A program made the translations under genes and the position numbers. 64,000 bases of DNA from NCBI GenBank assembly GCA_030867875.1, contig JAOWCC010001634.1, forward strand, positions 133,028,807-133,092,806, written 5' to 3'. Numbering within the stretch: the stretch's first letter is position 1; each line of letters begins with the position of its first letter. Positions 6,170 to 62,939 of the stretch are shown here, piece by piece. The notes under the pieces are model-generated. The model had not been told where the DNA came from. It saw only the letters and a program-made list of their open reading frames with translations, and did no database searches. The stretch comes from Actinernus sp. WN-2022 (lineage: Eukaryota; Cnidaria; Anthozoa; Actiniaria; Actinernidae).

Positions 6170-6308
6170 GGAGTTTGACTTATATCTCCATACCCTCTTT
6201 CTGCTAAAGCCATCCTCGAAGACCTCTGCCGTAAGAAACTGATGGGACGACCAGATTCCCGAGAGCGAGCTACACAATTGGACTACTTGGCTTGAACACT
6301 TGCTGAAA
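6170..6308 (+). pseudogene. BEL/Pao LTR-retrotransposon pol relic, upstream piece
   Basis: The plus-strand reading contains AKAILEDLCRKK (about 6208-6245) followed by a degenerate Trp-Leu segment. This matches the segment between reverse transcriptase and RNase H that is typical of BEL/Pao polyproteins. The reading stops being BEL-like at the ACTCGAG at 6308-6314 and resumes 8.5 kb downstream at 14846. It is degenerate, with frameshifts and no long open frame. The family call rests mainly on the downstream piece. Confidence 0.65.
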
Positions 6309-6420
6309 CTCGAGTATAGTATAGAATATGGGGGTTCTGGCGCAGCACCCTCGTTGTTTGTTGCAATCCCGCCTAACTAGACCCGTATTTTTTCTTTGGC
6401 AACCCTCCGTTTCGGCAACC

Positions 6421-6550
6421 TTTTCGGAAATCCTATGTGTAGCCAGATGGGGGCACCATTTTTCGGAAATCCTGTATCTATGGAAGTAGATGGGAGACCC
6501 ACAGTCTACACAACTTTTCGGAAATCCTATGTGTAGCCAAATGGGTCTCA
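6421..6550 (+). repeat. Subterminal repeats, left arm
   Basis: Three copies of TTTTCGGAAATCCT(G/A) start at about 6421, 6459 and 6514. Two continue into ATGTGTAGCCAGATGGG. The mirror set lies at about 14605-14745. Regularly spaced subterminal repeats are common binding sites for element-encoded proteins; that role is inferred here. Confidence 0.75.
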
Positions 6551-6667
6551 GTCCAGGCCTCCACCATGGTCCAGATGCAAATTGTTGCCCGAAAGCTTCC
6601 TATTAGACAATTAATGTAGCCCAAGGATATAGGGCAACTATTCTATTCGCACCAAAAACCTACGACA

Positions 6668-8690
6668 ATGGCAGCTATCCACGCAACATTCGAAAGCATG
6701 GGACTTCGTGTGGAGAAGAACTCAGTCCTCCATCTCCTACTAGAGAATACCTACGATAGCAACCTCGTCTCGGATATCTCCGATGTGGACTAGCTAGCCG
6801 AAACGAAGGCCAAACCAACCTTGTTCCACTCGAAGGACTTCCAACATTCGTGGACGACTTGCATGTGTTTGGCTATCTCTCCCGTACGGATGTTGTCTAC
6901 AAAGGAAGAAGGGTCCTACTCTCCACTGGAGATGCTGGAAAAGCAAAAACAGGTGGTTGCAGCAATACAGCTCGCAATACAGAACTCCAACCTATCTGGC
7001 AAACACCTCCACGTACGTAGCCATTTCCCACACTGCTAGTCCCGCCAGCAATGGCATTGTTTCTACGACCATTGCTAGAATCGAGAACGACACAGCAAAC
7101 CGCGCTCGCCAAGCATGGTGCAAGCTATATTCAGACGAAGAACCCGGAAGCCTATTTTGTGGCCAAGGTCGATGTATCGGAAATTCACTGGAGCAGCTGC
7201 AGTCTACACTAGCAGGACTCGAAAGGCACCTCGAACCTTGTGGCTATGGGCTCTATAGCATAGACTACACCCAAGAACAAGGAGACCTAGCCCATGCAAT
7301 GTGTTCCTATGGGGCGACTATCTTGGACAATACAGACTCCGTTGGAAAGCACGTGTGCACCTACATTCGCACTACAGCAACATACAAGAAGATTGTTTCG
7401 AACTTCGAGGCTGGAGAGATTCGAGAACCTTTTGGTGGCCACCTTGCAGACTATGTCGACTGTCCCAACAAACATCTCCACCAAACGTTCCAGCATCCAG
7501 ATGTCCAGGCTCGTGGGTGCACTCGTGTCGAGGTTTCGCTATATGCATGCCGTCTCGGCGAAGAGTTGTCTTCCAACATGGGGAAAGAGCTGGTAGAGGA
7601 GGTTCTGCAGACCCAGGGCCAAGATCTCTCGTAGTACAACCACCATCCAGACAATGGGGAAATCTAGCCCAAGAGCTGGACCGTTGTTGTATCCTTGCAG
7701 ATCGTCCGTCCCACACAATATATGCAACGTGGTATGCCCATTCCAAGACAAAGAGGGTGGCAGGGGTGCGGGTAGCTCCCACAGCTACCATATGCCACAA
7801 CGACCAGTACTGGGAGAAGGCCGTACGATGGACAATTTCCGAGTTTGGATTCCGATGCTGCCCCATCTTTCGTGTGGATATCTAGAGACCACAGACGTCG
7901 GCATCGACATAGGTCCACTTCGCTGCTACACAAAAGCAGCCAACACTTCGACCATTCTTGCCGCCAGCAAACGACCAGTGCAGAAACACACCAACTGCCT
8001 TCCACCAAGCCAACTGCTTCCAGAAACCCCCCAAGTAGCATGGATATGGCGAGAAAAGTACACCAACAATGCTATAGGGAAAGAAAAGAGTCGCTGGCCA
8101 CTGGAAGAGATACCCACAGATCGCGAAATATCGACGCTATCTACACACCATATATAGGCTAGCTAGATTGTTGGCTATTGCAGATGCGAAGAAGACCGAG
8201 TTGTGGCGTCGTAGAGTTGTCGAGGAACAAGTCGCACTTCGAGCGAGATACCCCAAACCCAGCAGACAAGCCTTGGTAGAAGCCCTATTGCAAAAAGCCA
8301 ACGAGGCATACAACGAGCTTCGTAGACACCCACCCAACCTTGCCATCGTACCAGCACCAAAAAGAACAGAGTGCAACAAAGCAGTCGATCTAGCTACAGG
8401 CGAGTACATTTGCTTCCTATATTCTACAACCACCTTCCGTGGTAGTCCAAGAACTATTCTACATCTTCTTCCTGCAGATAGCAATGGCGAAGCCTACCAC
8501 CGACGAAGAGACGCCTACATATGGTTTCTTCCTAGAGCGAGTACTAGAAGCAATTGGCACAAAAACTTGGAACGGGCTCTAGCGCCACTACGCTGCTATC
8601 TTGGAGACATTCGAACCACACCAAACAAGAAGAAGGACAGACTTGCCACCATATCTATCTGCCAATGCGTGTAGCATGTCTACGACGTAG
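6668..8690 (+). pseudogene. Left-arm copy of ORF1 and ORF2, disabled
   Basis: The ATG at 6668 opens the same reading as right-arm ORF1 (14490) but meets TAG at 6791. The ORF2 homologue follows in pieces in several frames (about 6957-7634, 7654-7890, 8168-8674). Relative to the right arm it lacks the segment from the CTYIR motif into the IYNK motif, and about 450 bp that encode the charged helix and the FFLPYTNFRVLGFRR region. Where the right copy seems to be out of frame, this copy often preserves the more protein-like reading (YWEKAVRWTISEFGF, then CCPIFRVDI), so the two arms have decayed independently. Confidence 0.8.
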
Positions 8691-8699
8691 ACGGACAAA

Positions 8700-9060
8700 G
8701 ACTAGCCAGACGTTGGAATGCTGGACTATCTGGCCATGACAAAACAAGACCATCCTCGTTGCACAACGAAGGAGTCTCGAAGTCTACGTCTCGCACGAGA
8801 TACAAGGGACCGAGAGCAAGAGAGTCGCAAAGTGCTTTCCCCACACTTTCTATTCCAACATCTTCCACACCTACATAGCACAAAATACCTTCTCCCTTTT
8901 TCGGCGATGCGAGATATGCCTCCAAAGACATCTGGTCGCACCCGAAGACACTGCCGTAGCCAAGGCTTCCTTCCAGGCCCGTGTTGGATAGAACATTGGC
9001 CACTTTCCCCAAGAACCATACATTCGTAGAATATCCATATTCCTATATGCCTACATATAG
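8700..9060 (+). pseudogene. Third gene remnant of the palindromic element, left arm
   Basis: Downstream of ORF2 a coding-like stretch with shifted frames can be read (CEICLQRHLVAP, then KASFQARVG), ending near RISIFLYAYI. The inverted copy at about 11590-11960 has the same words. It is uncertain whether this is a separate gene or the frameshifted C-terminus of ORF2. Confidence 0.4.
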
Positions 9061-9127
9061 CATTCTACAAAAGGGCATTCGCTTCGACTACGAAGTAGAC
9101 TACATATACATATGCCTGCAAAACTCC

Positions 9128-9350
9128 GAACATTTTGCGAATCTACGAACCTATTGCAAAGCTACAATCCTATTGCAAAGCCACGAACCTATTGCGAATC
9201 TACAATCCTATTGCAAATCTACAATCCTATTGCAAATCTACGATCCTATCGCAAATCTACGATCCTATTGCGAATCTACGATCCTATTGCAAATCTACGA
9301 TCCTATTGCGAAAGCCACGAACCTATTGCAAAGCCACGAACATATTGCAA
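9128..9350. repeat. 19-bp satellite, left arm (about 12 units)
   Basis: Tandem 19-mers of the form CTACAATCCTATTGCAAAT with single-base variants. The right arm holds the inverted array at 10545-11510 with about fifty units. Open frames over the array (repeats of YCKSTILLQIYDPIANL) are only translations of the repeat. Confidence 0.95.
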
Positions 9351-9357
9351 AGCCCCG

Positions 9358-9622
9358 AACAAATGGCACCGCAAAAAGATAGAAAACAAATGGAACCGCA
9401 AAAAAGATAGAAAACAAATGGCACCGCAAAAGATAGAAAACAAATGGAACCGCAAAAAAGATAGAAAACAAATGGCACCGCAAAAAAGATAGAAAACAAA
9501 TGGCACCGCAAAAGATAAAAAACAAATGGAACCGCAAAAAAGATAGAAAACAAATGGCTCCGTAAAAAGATAGAAAACAAATGCCACCGCAAAAGATAGA
9601 AAACAAATGGCACCGCAAAGAC
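9358..9622. repeat. 27-28 bp satellite, left arm
   Basis: About nine units of GCACCGCAAAAAAGATAG followed by AAAACAAATG. The inverted counterpart is at 10210-10510. Apparent proteins rich in FCGAICFLSF or NKWHRKKDRK are translations of this repeat on the two strands. Confidence 0.95.
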
Positions 9623-9827
9623 ATCCAAGGCCAACCATCCGAGGTATAGCACACAAAGGAAAAAATCGGCGGAACACGAGATTTACAAGGGCGCAGTGCA
9701 TCTATGTATGTACAAGGTCCACCACAGGACACCAACAAGGGATGCCTAGAACACCAACAAGATCCCCCATAGGAACCCACAAGGTTCCAACAAGGTCGCA
9801 ACAAGGTTCGTATCTACGTACTGCTAG

Positions 9828-9998
9828 ACATTTGCTAGATACGTGCTAGCTGTTTGCTAGAAGTTTGCTAGCTGTTTGCTAGAAGTTTGCTAGATATTTG
9901 CTAGATGTTTGCTAGACATTCGCTAGATATTTGCTAGATATTGCTAGATATTTGCTAGCTGTTTTGCTAGACAGCCGCTAGACATTCGCTAGCAGTAC
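9828..9998. repeat. Axis of the palindromic element: GCTAGA short repeats
   Basis: About fifteen units of an ~11-bp repeat (GCTAGATATTT, GCTAGCTGTTT, GCTAGAAGTTT and GCTAGACATTC variants) fill the junction between the arms. GCTAGC is itself a palindrome. Outside the array, GGTTCGTATCTACGTAC on the left mirrors GTACGTAGATACGAAC on the right, which marks the axis at about 9.91 kb. Confidence 0.9.
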
Positions 9999-10209
9999 GT
10001 AGATACGAACTTTGTTGCGACCTTGTTGGAACCTTGTTGGAACCTTGTTGGGTTCCTATGGGGGATCTTGTTGGTGTTCTAGGCATCCCTTGTTGGTGTC
10101 CTGTGGTGGGCCTTGTACATACATAGATGCGCTGCACCCTTGAAATCTCGTGGTTCCGCCGTTTTTGTCCTTTGCCTTTGTGTGCTATACTTCGGATCAG
10201 TCGGATGGT

Positions 10210-10510
10210 TGGCCTTGGATGTCTTTGCGGTGCCATTTGTTTTCTATCTTTTTGCGGTGCCATTTGTTTTCTATCTTTTGCGGTGGCATTTGTTTTCTAT
10301 CTTTTTGCGGAGCCGTTTGTTTTCTATCTTTTTTGCGGTTCCATTTGTTTTCTATCTTTTGCGGTGCCATTTGTTTTCTATCTTTTTGCGGTGCCATTTG
10401 TTTTCTATCTTTTTGCGGTTCCATTTGTTTTCTATCTTTTGCGGTGCCATTTGTTTTCTATCTTTTTTGCGGTTCCATTTGTTTTCTATCTTTTTGCGGT
10501 GCCATTTGTT
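10210..10510. repeat. 27-28 bp satellite, right arm
   Basis: Inverted counterpart of 9358-9622: about eleven units of GCGGTGCCATTTGTTTTC followed by TATCTTTTT. Confidence 0.95.
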
Positions 10511-10544
10511 CGGGGCTTTGCAATATGTTCGTGGCTTTGCAATA

Positions 10545-11510
10545 GGTTCGTGGCTTTCGCAATAGGATTGTAGTTTCGAAATAGGATTGTAGATTTGCAA
10601 TAGGATTGTAGATTTGCAATAGGATCGTAGATTTGCAATAGGATCGTATATTTGCAATAGGATTGTAGATTTGCGATAGGATCGTAGATTTGCAATAGGA
10701 TTGTAGATTTGCAATAGGATTGTACATTTGCAATAGGATTGTAGATTTGCAATAGGATTGTAGATTCGCAAAGGTTCGTGGCTTTGCAATAGGTTCGTGG
10801 CTTTGCAATAGGTTCGTGGCTTTGCAATAGGTTCGTGGCTTCGCAATAGGATTGTAGATTTGCTATCGGTTCGTGGCTTTGCAATAGGTTCGTGGCTTTG
10901 CACTAGGATTGTAGATTCGCAATAGGATTGTAGATTTGCACTAGGATTGTAGATTTGCACTAGGATTGTAGATTCGCACTAGGATTGTAGATTCGCAATA
11001 GGATTGTAGATTCGCAATAGGATTGTAGATTCGCAATAGGATTGTAGATTCGCACTAGGATTGTAGATTCGCACTAGGATTGTAGATTTGCACTAGGATT
11101 GTAGATTTGCAATAGGATTGTAGATTTGCAGTAGGATTGTAGATTCGCACTAGGATCGTAGATTTGCAATAGGATCGTAGATTTGCACTAGGATTGTAGA
11201 TTTGCACTAGGATTGTAGATTTGCAATAGGATGGTAGATTTGCAATAGGATCGTAGATTTGCACTAGGATCGTAGATTTGCACTAGGATTGTAGATTCGC
11301 ACTAGGATTGTAGATTTGCACTAGGATTGTAGATTCGCACTAGGATTGTAGATTTGCAATAGGATCGTAGATTTGCACTAGGATTGTAGATTTGCACTAG
11401 GATTGTAGATTTGCAATAGGATTGTAGATTTCCAATAGGATTGTAGATTTGCACTAGGATTGTAGATTTGAAATAGGTTCATAGCTTTGCAATAGGTTCA
11501 AAGATTCGCA
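10545..11510. repeat. 19-bp satellite, right arm (about 50 units)
   Basis: Inverted counterpart of 9128-9350 (GATTGTAGATTTGCAATAG units), four to five times longer than the left array. A sub-family with TTGCACTAG instead of TTGCAATAG is common only here, so the extra units arose by local expansion in this arm. Confidence 0.95.
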
Positions 11511-11589
11511 AAATGTTCGGAGTTTTGCAGGCATATGTATAAGTAGTCTACTTCGTAGTCGAAGCGAATGCCCTTTTGTTAGAATGCCA

Positions 11590-11960
11590 TATGTAGGCAT
11601 ATAGGAATATGGATATTCTACGAATGTATGGTTCTTGGGGAAAGTGGCCAATGTTCTATCCAACACGGGCCTGGAAGGAAGCCATGGCTACGGCAGTGGT
11701 CTTCGGGTGCGACCCAGATGTCTTTGGAGGCATATCTCGCATCGCCGAAAAAGGGAGAAGGTATTTTGTGCTATGTAGGTGTGGATGATGTTGGAATAGA
11801 AAGTGTGGGGGAAAGCACTCTCTTGCTCTCGGTCCCTTGTATCTCGTGCGAGACGTAGACTTCGAGACTCCTTCGTTGTGCAACGAGGATGGTCTTGTTT
11901 TGCCATGGCCAGATAGTCCAGCATTCCAACGTCTGGCTAGTCTTTGTCCGTCTACGTCGT
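11590..11960 (-). pseudogene. Third gene remnant of the palindromic element, right arm
   Basis: Inverted copy of 8700-9060, also broken across frames (minus-strand fragments with MLDYLAMAKQDHPRC and CEICLQRHLG). Its function is not recognised. Confidence 0.4.
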
Positions 11961-12059
11961 AGACATGCTACACGCATTGGCAGATAGATATGGTGACAAG
12001 TCTGTCCTTCTTCTTGTTTGGTGTGGTTCGAATGTCTCCAAGATAGCAGCGTAGTGGCG

Positions 12060-14000
12060 CTAGAGCCCGTTCCAAGTTTTTGTGCCAATTGCTTCTAGTA
12101 CTCGCTCTAGGAAGAAACCATATGTAGGCGTCTCTTCGTCGGTGGTAGGCTCGCCATTGCTATCTGCAGGAAGAAGATGTAGAATAGTTCTTGGACTACC
12201 ACGGAAGGTGGTTGTAGAATATAGGAAGCAAATGTACTCGCCTGTAGCTAGATCGACTGCTTTGTTGCACTCTGTTCTTTTTGGTGCTGGTACGATGGCA
12301 AGGTTGGGTGGGTGTCTACGAAGCTCGTTGTATGCCTCGTTGGCTTTTTGCAATAGGGCTTCTACCAAAGGCTTGTCTGCTGGGTTTGTGGTCTCTTGCA
12401 GAGATATGGGAATCCATTCGATTTGTCTATTGTTGGCATATAACTTTTTCTCTGGTTGGGTTTGGAAGCGAAGGGTAGGTTTGTTTGGGGATAGTTGGAC
12501 TAGGTAGTATAGTTGAGTGGGGTCGGATCCACACTGCGAGAAGTTGCCCTCGAGTTTGTCGAGTATAGTCGATAGTCCCTTCGTGCTCCATATGGCCATA
12601 TCCTCTCGTACAGCGCTACCTGACACATCGACATCTACAAAGATTCTAGCTGTATTGCCATACTGGCTTTTGCATCTTCGGAACCCTAGGACACGAAAGT
12701 TGGTGTAGGGAAGAAAGAAGTCTAGCTTGTAGGTTGTGGTTTTCGCGGCCATCTCTATCCGGCCTACAACCTCGGCTGTCTTTGCTTCGAAATCTCTCTT
12801 TCCAGATAGGAAGCGTTCCATCTTCGCGATCTCTTCCATCCTTTTCGCTCGAAGTGCGACTTGTTCCTCGACAACTCTACGACGCCACAACTCGGCCTTC
12901 TTCGCATCTGCAATAGCCAACCATCTAGCTAGCCTATGATGTGTAGATAGCGTCGATATTTCGCGATATGTGGGTATCTCTTCCAGTGGCCAGCGAATCT
13001 TTTCTTTCCCTATAGCATTGTTTGTGTGCTTTTCTCGCCATATCCATGCTACTTGGGGGGTTTCTGGAAGCAGTTGGCTTGGTGGAAGGCAGTTGGTGTG
13101 TTTCTGCACTGGTCGTTTGCTGGCGGCAAGAATGGTCGAAGTGTTGGCTGCTTTTGTGTAGCAGGAAGTGGATCTATGTCTATGCCGATGTCTGTGGTCT
13201 CTAGAATATCCACACGAAAGATGGGGCAGCATTGGAATCCAAACTCGGAATTTGTCCATCGTACGGCCTTCTCCCAGTACTGGTCGTTGTCGCATATGGT
13301 AGCTGTGGGAGCTACCCGCACCCCTGCCACCCTCTTTGTCTTGGAATGGGTATACCACGTTGCATGCATATATTGTGTGGGACGGACGATCTGCAAGGAT
13401 ACAACAACGGTCCAGCTCTTGGGCTAGATTTCCCCATTGTCTGGATGGTGGTTGTACTACGAAGAGATCTTGGCCCTGGGTCTGCAGAACCTCCTCTACC
13501 AGCTCTTTCCCCATGTTGGAAGACAACTCTTCGCCGAGACGGCATGCATATAGCGAAACCTCGACACGAGTGCACCCACGAGCCTGGACATCGGGATGCT
13601 GGAACGTTTGGTGGAGATGTTTGTTGGGACAGTCGACAGTCGAATCTCTCCAGCCTCGAAGTTCGAAACAATCTTGTTGTATATCTTCGCACGAATTGTC
13701 TTGCCTGTTGCTGTAGTGCATGCGAATGTAGGTGCACACGTGCTTTCCAACGGAGTCTGTATTGTCCAAGATAGTCGCCCCATAGGAACACATTGCATGG
13801 GCTAGGTCTCCTTGTTCTCGCATATCTTCGTTTTCCAACAGATGGTCCACTAGTGCGGATCTATCTAGTACCCCCGAGAAATCTTGGGTGTAGTCTATGC
13901 TATAGAGCCCATAGCCACAAGGTTCGAGGTGCCTTTCGAGTCCTGCTAGTGTAGACTGCAGCTGCTCCAGCGGAATTTCCGATACATCGACCTTGGCCAC
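12060..14000 (-). CDS. ORF2 of the palindromic element, 646 codons, unknown protein
   Basis: This is the longest open frame in the window. It is intronless, and the listed start is a GTG; protein-like reading continues upstream (IVSTTIARIENDTANRARQAW) to a TAA, so the true start is unclear and may lie in or be fused to ORF1. N-terminal features are YSIDYTQDFSGVLDR (about residues 33-47) and GCTRVEVSLYACR (about 142-154). Between them another frame holds TGKTIRAKIYNK, and a little further on YWEKAVRW and CCPIFRVDI are also out of frame. The 646-codon frame therefore passes through at least two blocks of compensating indels. The order D-x-T-x-D, K-x-Y-N-K, R-V-E-V is loosely like plasmid/phage rolling-circle Rep_trans proteins, but I see no HUH motif and no catalytic Tyr, so this is only a suggestion. 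The C-terminal half has a charged helix (ELWRRRVVEEQVALRAK) and no known motif. Confidence 0.6.
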   Translation of the reverse strand: MAKVDVSEIPLEQLQSTLAGLERHLEPCGYGLYSIDYTQDFSGVLDRSALVDHLLENEDMREQGDLAHAMCSYGATILDNTDSVGKHVCTYIRMHYSNRQDNSCEDIQQDCFELRGWRDSTVDCPNKHLHQTFQHPDVQARGCTRVEVSLYACRLGEELSSNMGKELVEEVLQTQGQDLFVVQPPSRQWGNLAQELDRCCILADRPSHTIYACNVVYPFQDKEGGRGAGSSHSYHMRQRPVLGEGRTMDKFRVWIPMLPHLSCGYSRDHRHRHRHRSTSCYTKAANTSTILAASKRPVQKHTNCLPPSQLLPETPQVAWIWREKHTNNAIGKEKIRWPLEEIPTYREISTLSTHHRLARWLAIADAKKAELWRRRVVEEQVALRAKRMEEIAKMERFLSGKRDFEAKTAEVVGRIEMAAKTTTYKLDFFLPYTNFRVLGFRRCKSQYGNTARIFVDVDVSGSAVREDMAIWSTKGLSTILDKLEGNFSQCGSDPTQLYYLVQLSPNKPTLRFQTQPEKKLYANNRQIEWIPISLQETTNPADKPLVEALLQKANEAYNELRRHPPNLAIVPAPKRTECNKAVDLATGEYICFLYSTTTFRGSPRTILHLLPADSNGEPTTDEETPTYGFFLERVLEAIGTKTWNGL

Positions 14001-14118
14001 GAAATAGGCTTCGGGTTCTTCGTCTGGATATAGCTTGCACCATGCTTGGCGAGCGCGGTTTGCTGTGTCGTTCTCGATTCTAGCAATGGTCGTAGAAACA
14101 ATGCCATTGCTGGCGGGA

Positions 14119-14490
14119 CTAGCAGTGTGGGAAATGGCTACGTACGTAGAGGTGTTTGCCAGTTAGGTTGGAGTTCTGTATTGCGAGCTGTATGGCTGCA
14201 ACCACCTGTTTTGCTTTTCCAGCATCTCCAGTGGAGAGTAGGACCCTTCTTCCTTTGTAGACAACATCCGTACGGGAGAGATAGCCAAACACATACAAGT
14301 CGTCCACGAATGTTGGAAGTCCTTCGAGTGGAACAAGGTTGGTTTGGCCTTCGTTTCCGGCTAGATAGTCCACATCGGAGATATCCGAGACGAGGTTGCT
14401 ATCGTAGGTATTCTCTAGTAGGAGATGGAGGACTGAGTTCTTCTCCACACGAAGTCCCATGCTTTCGAATGTTGCGTGGATAGCTGCCAT
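14119..14490 (-). CDS. ORF1 of the palindromic element, 123 aa, unknown
   Basis: The ATG at 14490 opens 123 codons ending ...RSHFPHC. It is a soluble, mixed alpha/beta-like sequence with no signal peptide or known motif (LPTFVDDLYVFGYLSR in the middle, LLSTGDAGKAKQVVAAI near the end). Its end overlaps, in the +1 frame, protein-like sequence leading into ORF2. ORF1-ORF2 may therefore be one gene with a frameshift (programmed or mutational) or two overlapping genes. The left-arm copy (6668) is interrupted by TAG at 6791. Confidence 0.55.
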   Translation of the reverse strand: MAAIHATFESMGLRVEKNSVLHLLLENTYDSNLVSDISDVDYLAGNEGQTNLVPLEGLPTFVDDLYVFGYLSRTDVVYKGRRVLLSTGDAGKAKQVVAAIQLAIQNSNLTGKHLYVRSHFPHC

Positions 14491-14604
14491 TGTTGTCGTA
14501 GGTTTTTGGTGCGAACAGAATAGTTGCCCTATATCCTTGGGCTACCATTGTCTAATAGGAAGCTTTCGGGCAACAATTTGCATCTGGACTATGGTGGAGG
14601 CCTG

Positions 14605-14745
14605 GACTGCGACCCATTTGGCTGCACATAGGATTTCCGAAAAGTTGTGTAGACTGTGGATCTCCCATCTACTTCCATTGATACAGGATTTCCGAAAAAA
14701 TGGTGCCCCCATCTGGCTACACATAGGATTTCCGAAAAGGTTGCC
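14605..14745 (-). repeat. Subterminal repeats, right arm
   Basis: Mirror image of 6421-6550: three copies of AGGATTTCCGAAAA with flanking CCCATCTGGCTACACAT. Confidence 0.75.
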
Positions 14746-14845
14746 GAAACGGAGGGTTGCCAAAGAAAAAATACGGGTCTAGTTAGGCGGGATTGCAACA
14801 AACAAACGAGGGTGCTGCGCCAGAACCCCCATATTCTATACTACT

Positions 14846-15183
14846 ACTCGAGCAAAATTGATTGATGCTTCAAGTCCGCGGAGTTTACAGACGTCGAGTC
14901 CAGCGAACTCCATCAATTCTCAGATGCTTCGGAGCGAGGATATGGAGCTGTTTCATATCTCCGACAGATTAACCCCTCTCAAACACATTGTAACGCAGAG
15001 CGCATGTGCCGTACATTCGATCTGTGTCCCTTGTAGAGAACGAAGATAAGAGATTTCAAACCTTCGTCAGTAGCTAACGGAGTCTCCGCTATATTAGATC
15101 AATCATTAGCGACACAGGAGATATGTCGACACGAAATCTATAACCGGACCGATGAAGCATCCAGGTGGATGTCAGCCGACTCT
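14846..15183 (+). pseudogene. BEL/Pao LTR-retrotransposon pol relic, downstream piece
   Basis: One plus-strand frame reads SDASERGYGAVSYLR (about 14918-14963), the hallmark start of the BEL/Pao RNase H region, preceded by FTDVESSELHQF. A further typical phrase, EASRWMSAD, lies at about 15155-15180. Stops and frameshifts interrupt it, so it is a relic. It continues the reading seen at 6170-6308, with the palindromic element lying between the two pieces. Confidence 0.8.

Positions 15184-30622: not shown

Positions 30623-62939
<32,317 letters not shown>

Follow-up and report, generated by a model that had tools for sequence, protein, structure and literature searches.

A palindromic family of transposable elements in Actinernus encoding a putative Rep_trans-like protein

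Rolling-hairpin replication of parvoviruses makes palindromic dimers, and the parvovirus Rep protein is an HUH enzyme. Foldback elements carry their coding part between the inverted repeats and encode a DDE transposase of the P or Mutator type, and a 6-bp target-site duplication (TSD) is the rule for Polintons. Helitrons have neither terminal inverted repeats (TIRs) nor TSDs, and Replitrons have no TIRs, short direct terminal repeats, a length of 0.9–4 kb, and TSDs of 2–8 bp, as described in excerpts of PMC10741241. Rep_trans initiators have a catalytic tyrosine with basic neighbours, acidic metal ligands, and an R-x-E motif (excerpts of PMC4797284). Here, we analyzed a 64,000-nt stretch of the genome of Actinernus sp. 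WN-2022 (assembly GCA_030867875.1, contig JAOWCC010001634.1, positions 133,028,807–133,092,806, forward strand), hereafter the window, which contains a palindromic mobile element. The gene-bearing whole palindrome is the regular unit of transposition of this element, and its main protein resembles Rep_trans initiators in invariant residues and apparently in predicted fold.

The palindrome as a transposing unit

The initial annotation had placed a mobile element of two mirrored arms at 6308–14852. With the borders set from the TSD, the exact unit was 6313–14845, and the earlier borders were thus right to within a few bases. The 5-bp sequence ACTCG flanks the palindrome on both sides as the TSD. 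The two arms align inversely from the terminal repeat through to the axis, as annotated, with an identity of 98.3% over 2279 aligned core columns. A chance origin is excluded by the length and identity of the palindrome.

The window is part of a 149-Mb contig in an assembly of 1.39 Gb. A six-frame search of this genome using the 646-aa open frame of the window retrieved at least 77 matches, merging into at least 68 arms; 68 of the 722 candidates were scored, and hence these counts are lower bounds. Mobility, which the initial annotation had proposed, was borne out. As the window sits on a 149-Mb contig of a family-bearing genome, a second organism is not needed to explain the sequence. For neighbouring arms within 30 kb among the matches listed, at least 23 pairs were convergent, one was direct, and none was divergent. 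In the single direct case, the second locus (L038) owns a further partner arm outside the matches listed. Another 22 arms were unpaired among the matches listed, and these are not all true singles because the left arm of the window and the second arm of L019 are also absent from the list. Single-arm copies elsewhere in the genome had been suggested as a check. In the one case examined closely (L020 with L045), the arm is truly single within the 14 kb read, damaged and without tips, and not a clean monomer. It adjoins a tandem array (L045 and L020:1-2750) of a ~710-bp unit with internal inverted repeats.

TSDs were testable in 10 of 19 elements; for the other nine (e11, e12, e14, e15, e21, e23, e31, e38, and e39), at least one tip was absent or lay beyond the retrieved sequence. 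An exact 5-bp direct repeat was present directly outside the tips in nine of the ten elements with both tips (ATAAG, CGCAG, GTCCT, GTCCA, CCAAG, AAAGC, GCGCG, CTTAT, and, in the window, ACTCG), and that of e35 matched at four of five positions. Five bases at a given position would match by chance in approximately 1 of 1000 cases. Excluding nested insertions, the palindrome measured ~8–14 kb across these ten two-tipped copies. Elements e13 (9070 bp) and e14 (8868 bp) were almost perfect palindromes, and the arms of e33 were 99.92% alike with 72 bp between them. The same palindrome was found on two contigs with shared flanks and in opposite orientation, which reads as two haplotypes.

Palindromes are hard for sequencing libraries and assemblers, and one arm could have been mirrored by the assembler. 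Such an artefact is extremely improbable given the different unique flanks with a matching 5-bp TSD on the two sides, the private differences between the arms, the recurrence of the same palindrome in two haplotype contigs, and the at least 23 convergent pairs; it was rejected on the TSDs, the haplotype contigs, and the private differences.

The window element is a decayed member of this family, with its main gene broken in both arms. Its parts are as follows (coordinates of the window, strand, feature).

6308–6312, no strand, left copy of the TSD (ACTCG)
6313–9827, plus, left arm, inner border approximate; tip AGTATAGTATAG
6420–6545, plus, three subterminal 32-nt repeats of the left arm, family D8
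6668–8674, plus, broken left-arm copy of the gene for the 841-aa Rep_trans-like protein (frameshifts, deletions, stops)
8680–9012, minus, open frame of the left arm in which the small convergent gene (116 aa when intact) is partly retained
9117–9351, no strand, 19-bp satellite of the left arm, ~12 copies
9358–9619, no strand, 27/28-bp satellite of the left arm
9828–9989, no strand, axis spacer of 11-bp (TGCTAGATATT)n units, borders approximate; other elements have a CTAGCAAA-type loop here
9990–14845, minus, right arm, inner border approximate; tip AGTAGTATAG (minus-strand reading)
10224–10510, no strand, 27-bp satellite of the right arm
10517–11529, no strand, 19-bp satellite of the right arm, ~53 copies
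11968–14490, minus, broken right-arm copy of the gene for the 841-aa Rep_trans-like protein, containing the 646-aa open frame 12060–14000
14613–14739, minus, three subterminal 32-nt repeats of the right arm, family D7
14846–14850, no strand, right copy of the TSD (ACTCG)

Subterminal repeats and two satellite families had been annotated, and both arms have them. The gene set had also been called complete, which did not hold for the window element. Frameshifts and deletions interrupt the main gene in both arms, and the segment with the putative catalytic tyrosine is disturbed in both; intact copies were found elsewhere in the same genome. The small convergent gene is partly retained in the window copy, and no similarity reached the third gene of the family there. 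The arms are unequal in length, mainly because of the satellite count (~12 copies of the 19-bp unit on the left and ~53 on the right) and deletions in the left arm, and each arm of this old copy has private indels. Scanning the window against Rfam gave no matches at gathering scores. Elsewhere in the window, a 77-bp tandem unit forms two arrays ~3 kb apart (43835–44128 and 47148–47707), each near 21-bp arrays with AAACG...CGTTT units.

Genes of the arms and the candidate enzyme

An 841-aa protein is encoded in each intact arm, and at least 145 relatives of it were found at E 1 or better (7993 candidates scored); Elysia crispata, Nematostella vectensis, and Actinostola were among the matches listed. 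The ratio of nonsynonymous to synonymous substitution rates (dN/dS) was 0.17–0.19 in nine comparisons between two subfamily groups, which indicates that the protein is under purifying selection. One close relative (P0045) was filed under a metagenome-assembled genome of Candidatus Thiodiazotropha endolucinida; this is probably animal-host DNA in a bacterial bin.

A small gene of 116 aa runs convergently to the 841-aa gene from the end of that gene. It showed 0–4 nonsynonymous against 4–11 synonymous differences in 10 of 10 pairwise comparisons, and the frame opposite to it showed the reverse tendency. The third gene had a weak helix-turn-helix (HTH) signal (HTH_28, E 0.0024, under the curated cut-off) and a ratio of 0.14–0.28 in five comparisons. 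No relatives of the small convergent gene or the HTH gene were retrieved in the searches made. The reading frames of the arms yielded only these three genes, and no integrase, no PolB, and no transposase Pfam match was found in the arms.

According to the initial annotation, no enzyme was recognizable in the element, and a clear match to a well-described transposon family would have counted against its reading; by sequence, the former held and no such match was found in the libraries searched. The enzyme gave nothing above chance against Pfam, PHROGs, PDB sequences, and phage genomes, and no confirmed relatives among IMG/VR and GTDB contigs. Neither the 646-aa frame of the window nor the intact 841-aa protein was matched by the PF02486 profile, even with E values of up to 10 allowed, and neither had a Pfam match of any kind above the cut-off. 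A protein family with at least 145 relatives is without a domain name at present. As possible yardsticks, Pf1 orf430 had no Pfam match, and Orf9 of phage B5 was assigned to Rep_1.

The enzyme became recognizable by predicted fold and invariant residues only, and on these grounds the 841-aa protein seems to resemble Rep_trans initiators. In the family alignment, Y267 and K265 were each conserved in 59 of 59 sequences and K269 in 58 of 59; D197, D201, and E316 were conserved in 58 of 58, R314 in 57 of 58, and D53 in 57 of 57. The conserved set comprises a tyrosine between basic residues, three acidic residues that each lie on a strand of their own, and the motifs R-x-E and D-x-x-x-D. The residue match to Rep_trans is a reading of order and spacing against the literature residues given in excerpts of PMC4797284. 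No HUH structure was among the structure matches listed for the 841-aa protein, which is no proof of absence. In a Foldseek comparison with viral models, three matches fell below 0.001; their targets were proteins without a name or characterisation, the root-mean-square deviation was 25–27, and these matches were not used.

Origin of the mirror and proposed mechanism

Both arms were compared in 20 elements, of which five (e09, e10, e21, e23, and e38) are alleles or duplicated loci and 15 are independent; L017 was excluded from the arm set because it overlaps L023/L024. The closest arm was the element's own partner in 14 of the 15 independent elements, with 98.3–100% identity between partner arms and at most 99.7% to any other element. 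For the five alleles or duplicates, the closest arm was the partner or the other copy of the same locus. The exception was e12, with an arm identity of 97.5% in the trimmed alignment; in one 2846-bp block, its arms were 99.05% identical to each other and 99.16% to another element. A maximum-likelihood tree paired the arms in the same 14 elements (starred support for 12, weak for e11, and by identity for e33); e12_r was excluded from it, as its inner end was badly aligned.

Gene conversion after insertion would likewise yield sister arms, and a foldback-like transposon could have been inherited as a palindrome and kept symmetrical in this way. The satellite-bearing long inverted repeats are reminiscent of foldback elements. 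However, two of seven variable sites in an allelic pair distinguished the two arms, A and B, in each haplotype (the other five were private), and four of seven sites in a duplicated locus split the arms in both copies, with two private sites and one conversion-like site, the last agreeing with conversion. Because arm-specific differences recur in alleles and duplicates, post-insertion conversion is apparently not the main cause of the symmetry. The old window copy also still has private indels in its arms, and the genes sit within the arms and are under selection. Inheritance as a foldback-like palindrome was therefore considered improbable. Since sister arms are mutual nearest relatives and differences specific to one arm persist in alleles and duplicates, the mirror seems to be formed separately for each copy, no later than its insertion.

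A tail-to-tail replicative dimer had been suggested for the window element. The arms of one element are indeed mutual closest relatives, in line with that suggestion, but the palindrome is the regular transposing unit and not an accident, as seen from the TSDs around whole palindromes and the at least 23 convergent pairs.

Whole palindromes end with AGTAGTA...TACTACT; AGTAGTA is common to the tips, with one small difference in the left tip of the window. A self-complementary hairpin of 154–237 nt was present at one or both ends in e09, e13, e16, e21, e23, e25, e27, e35, e37, e38, and e39; that of e09 had a folding energy of −67 kcal/mol (z −17.9). No tip hairpin was found at the ends examined of e18, e29, e33, and the window element, and the window end folded no better than shuffles. 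One end of e16, e18, and e33 lacks the inner terminal segment that the other end retains, and e15 has likewise lost it relative to the e09 reference. In these four elements (L016, L018, L034, and L015), the lost segment reaches the start of the shared core and the tip is retained. At the axis of e12, e21, e25, e31, and e33, CTAGCAAA-type repeats form a short asymmetric loop between CTAGTCCGGACTAG-type flanks, and both orientations of this loop occur; the axes of e13, e14, and the window element carry different short repeats.

We consider it somewhat more probable than the opposite that the transposon is copied via a self-folding single strand by a putative Rep_trans-like nickase and that the palindrome is remade in each round, much as palindromic dimers arise in the rolling-hairpin replication of parvoviruses. 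The protein would nick one strand at a hairpin (tip or axis) using the conserved tyrosine of its Rep_trans-like site, and a polymerase would displace a single strand, possibly bound by the OB-like domains. As the displaced strand would be self-complementary, it would fold back, and the arms would be equalised, with one serving as the template for copying or repairing the other. The hairpin would then be restored to a palindromic duplex and inserted with a 5-bp stagger.

The integration step has a live rival. The first 10 nt of the Polinton nested at the axis of e25 are identical to those of several element tips, but the TSD of this Polinton is 6 bp (TCCGGA; one Polinton measured) against 5 bp in the elements, and no terminal similarity extends past the tip; a borrowed Polinton-type integrase is thus to be considered. 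Taken further, the element could be a Polinton satellite with very long TIRs that relies on a Polinton-type integrase for insertion in trans at the shared tip, AGTAGTATAG, and whose Rep-like protein serves to replicate it or is cargo. That no integrase was found in the palindromic element and that Polinton pol genes adjoin or sit inside e21/e23 and e25 would fit; with the differences in TSD and termini, we regard this as possible but doubtful. The broader reading, in which a non-HUH Rep_trans-type nickase class rebuilds the palindrome by fold-back in each cycle and leaves a 5-bp TSD, possibly with a borrowed Polinton-type integrase, seems to us evenly balanced.

The Polinton in e25 lies inside the CTAGTCCGGACTAG motif, with TIRs of ~412 bp; its site is the joint of L025 with L041 near 5813, and L042 near 990. 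Its pol-like frame (1171 aa; L041:1053-4568, minus strand) is the pol gene seen in e25 and belongs to this nested insertion with its own TIRs. In the left flank of e23 (L006 and L023), a frame that looks like an N-terminal fragment of Polinton pol runs straight into the left arm, which has no tip there.

Comparison with known systems

No description of such an element was found among the papers listed in our literature search, the scope of which left Repbase and most subscription papers aside, so that a record under another name is possible. The element is set apart from Rep_trans, Helitrons/Replitrons, Polintons, and foldback elements, each of which has at least one defining feature that was tested for and not found in it. 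The annotated view that its layout departs from those usual for DNA transposons, Helitrons, and Polintons was supported. Long palindromes are considered unstable, yet this animal mobile element usually occurs in the genome as one, with halves that seem to be reset to near-identity around each insertion. If the nickase reading is true, a non-HUH rolling-circle-type enzyme class would be added to eukaryotic transposons, and plasmid replication, rolling-hairpin viruses, and transposition would be linked. Arm divergence would then also date each insertion, as long terminal repeat divergence does in retrotransposons.

Foldback elements (FB, Galileo, and TU) likewise have very long inverted repeats that contain satellites or other short repeats, whereas every gene here lies within the repeat and is doubled, the protein is different, and no transposase Pfam match was seen. 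Polintons/Mavericks share the AGTAGTATAG tip, identical over 10 nt to that of one Polinton of this genome; they differ in that no PolB or integrase was found in the arms here, the TSD is 5 bp and not 6 bp, and the gene-bearing arms are palindromic. Parvovirus rolling-hairpin replicons have hairpin tips, as do many of the copies here, and form inverted palindromic dimers by fold-back copying, as proposed here, whereas no capsid gene was seen in our element, 5-bp TSDs are present, and four examined elements have no hairpin tips. Helitrons and Replitrons are likewise transposons built on a single-strand nickase (a putative one here), and theirs are HUH enzymes; the TIRs of our element span its whole length, contrary to their definition by the absence of TIRs. 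The Rep_trans rolling-circle initiators (PF02486; the RepD family of pT181-type plasmids and RepSTK1) have these residues and motifs in the same order and appear to share the predicted fold over ~300 residues. Compared with them, the protein described here has no detectable PF02486 sequence similarity, is eukaryotic, is ~860 aa long with a coiled coil and OB-like domains, and is carried by a palindromic transposon.

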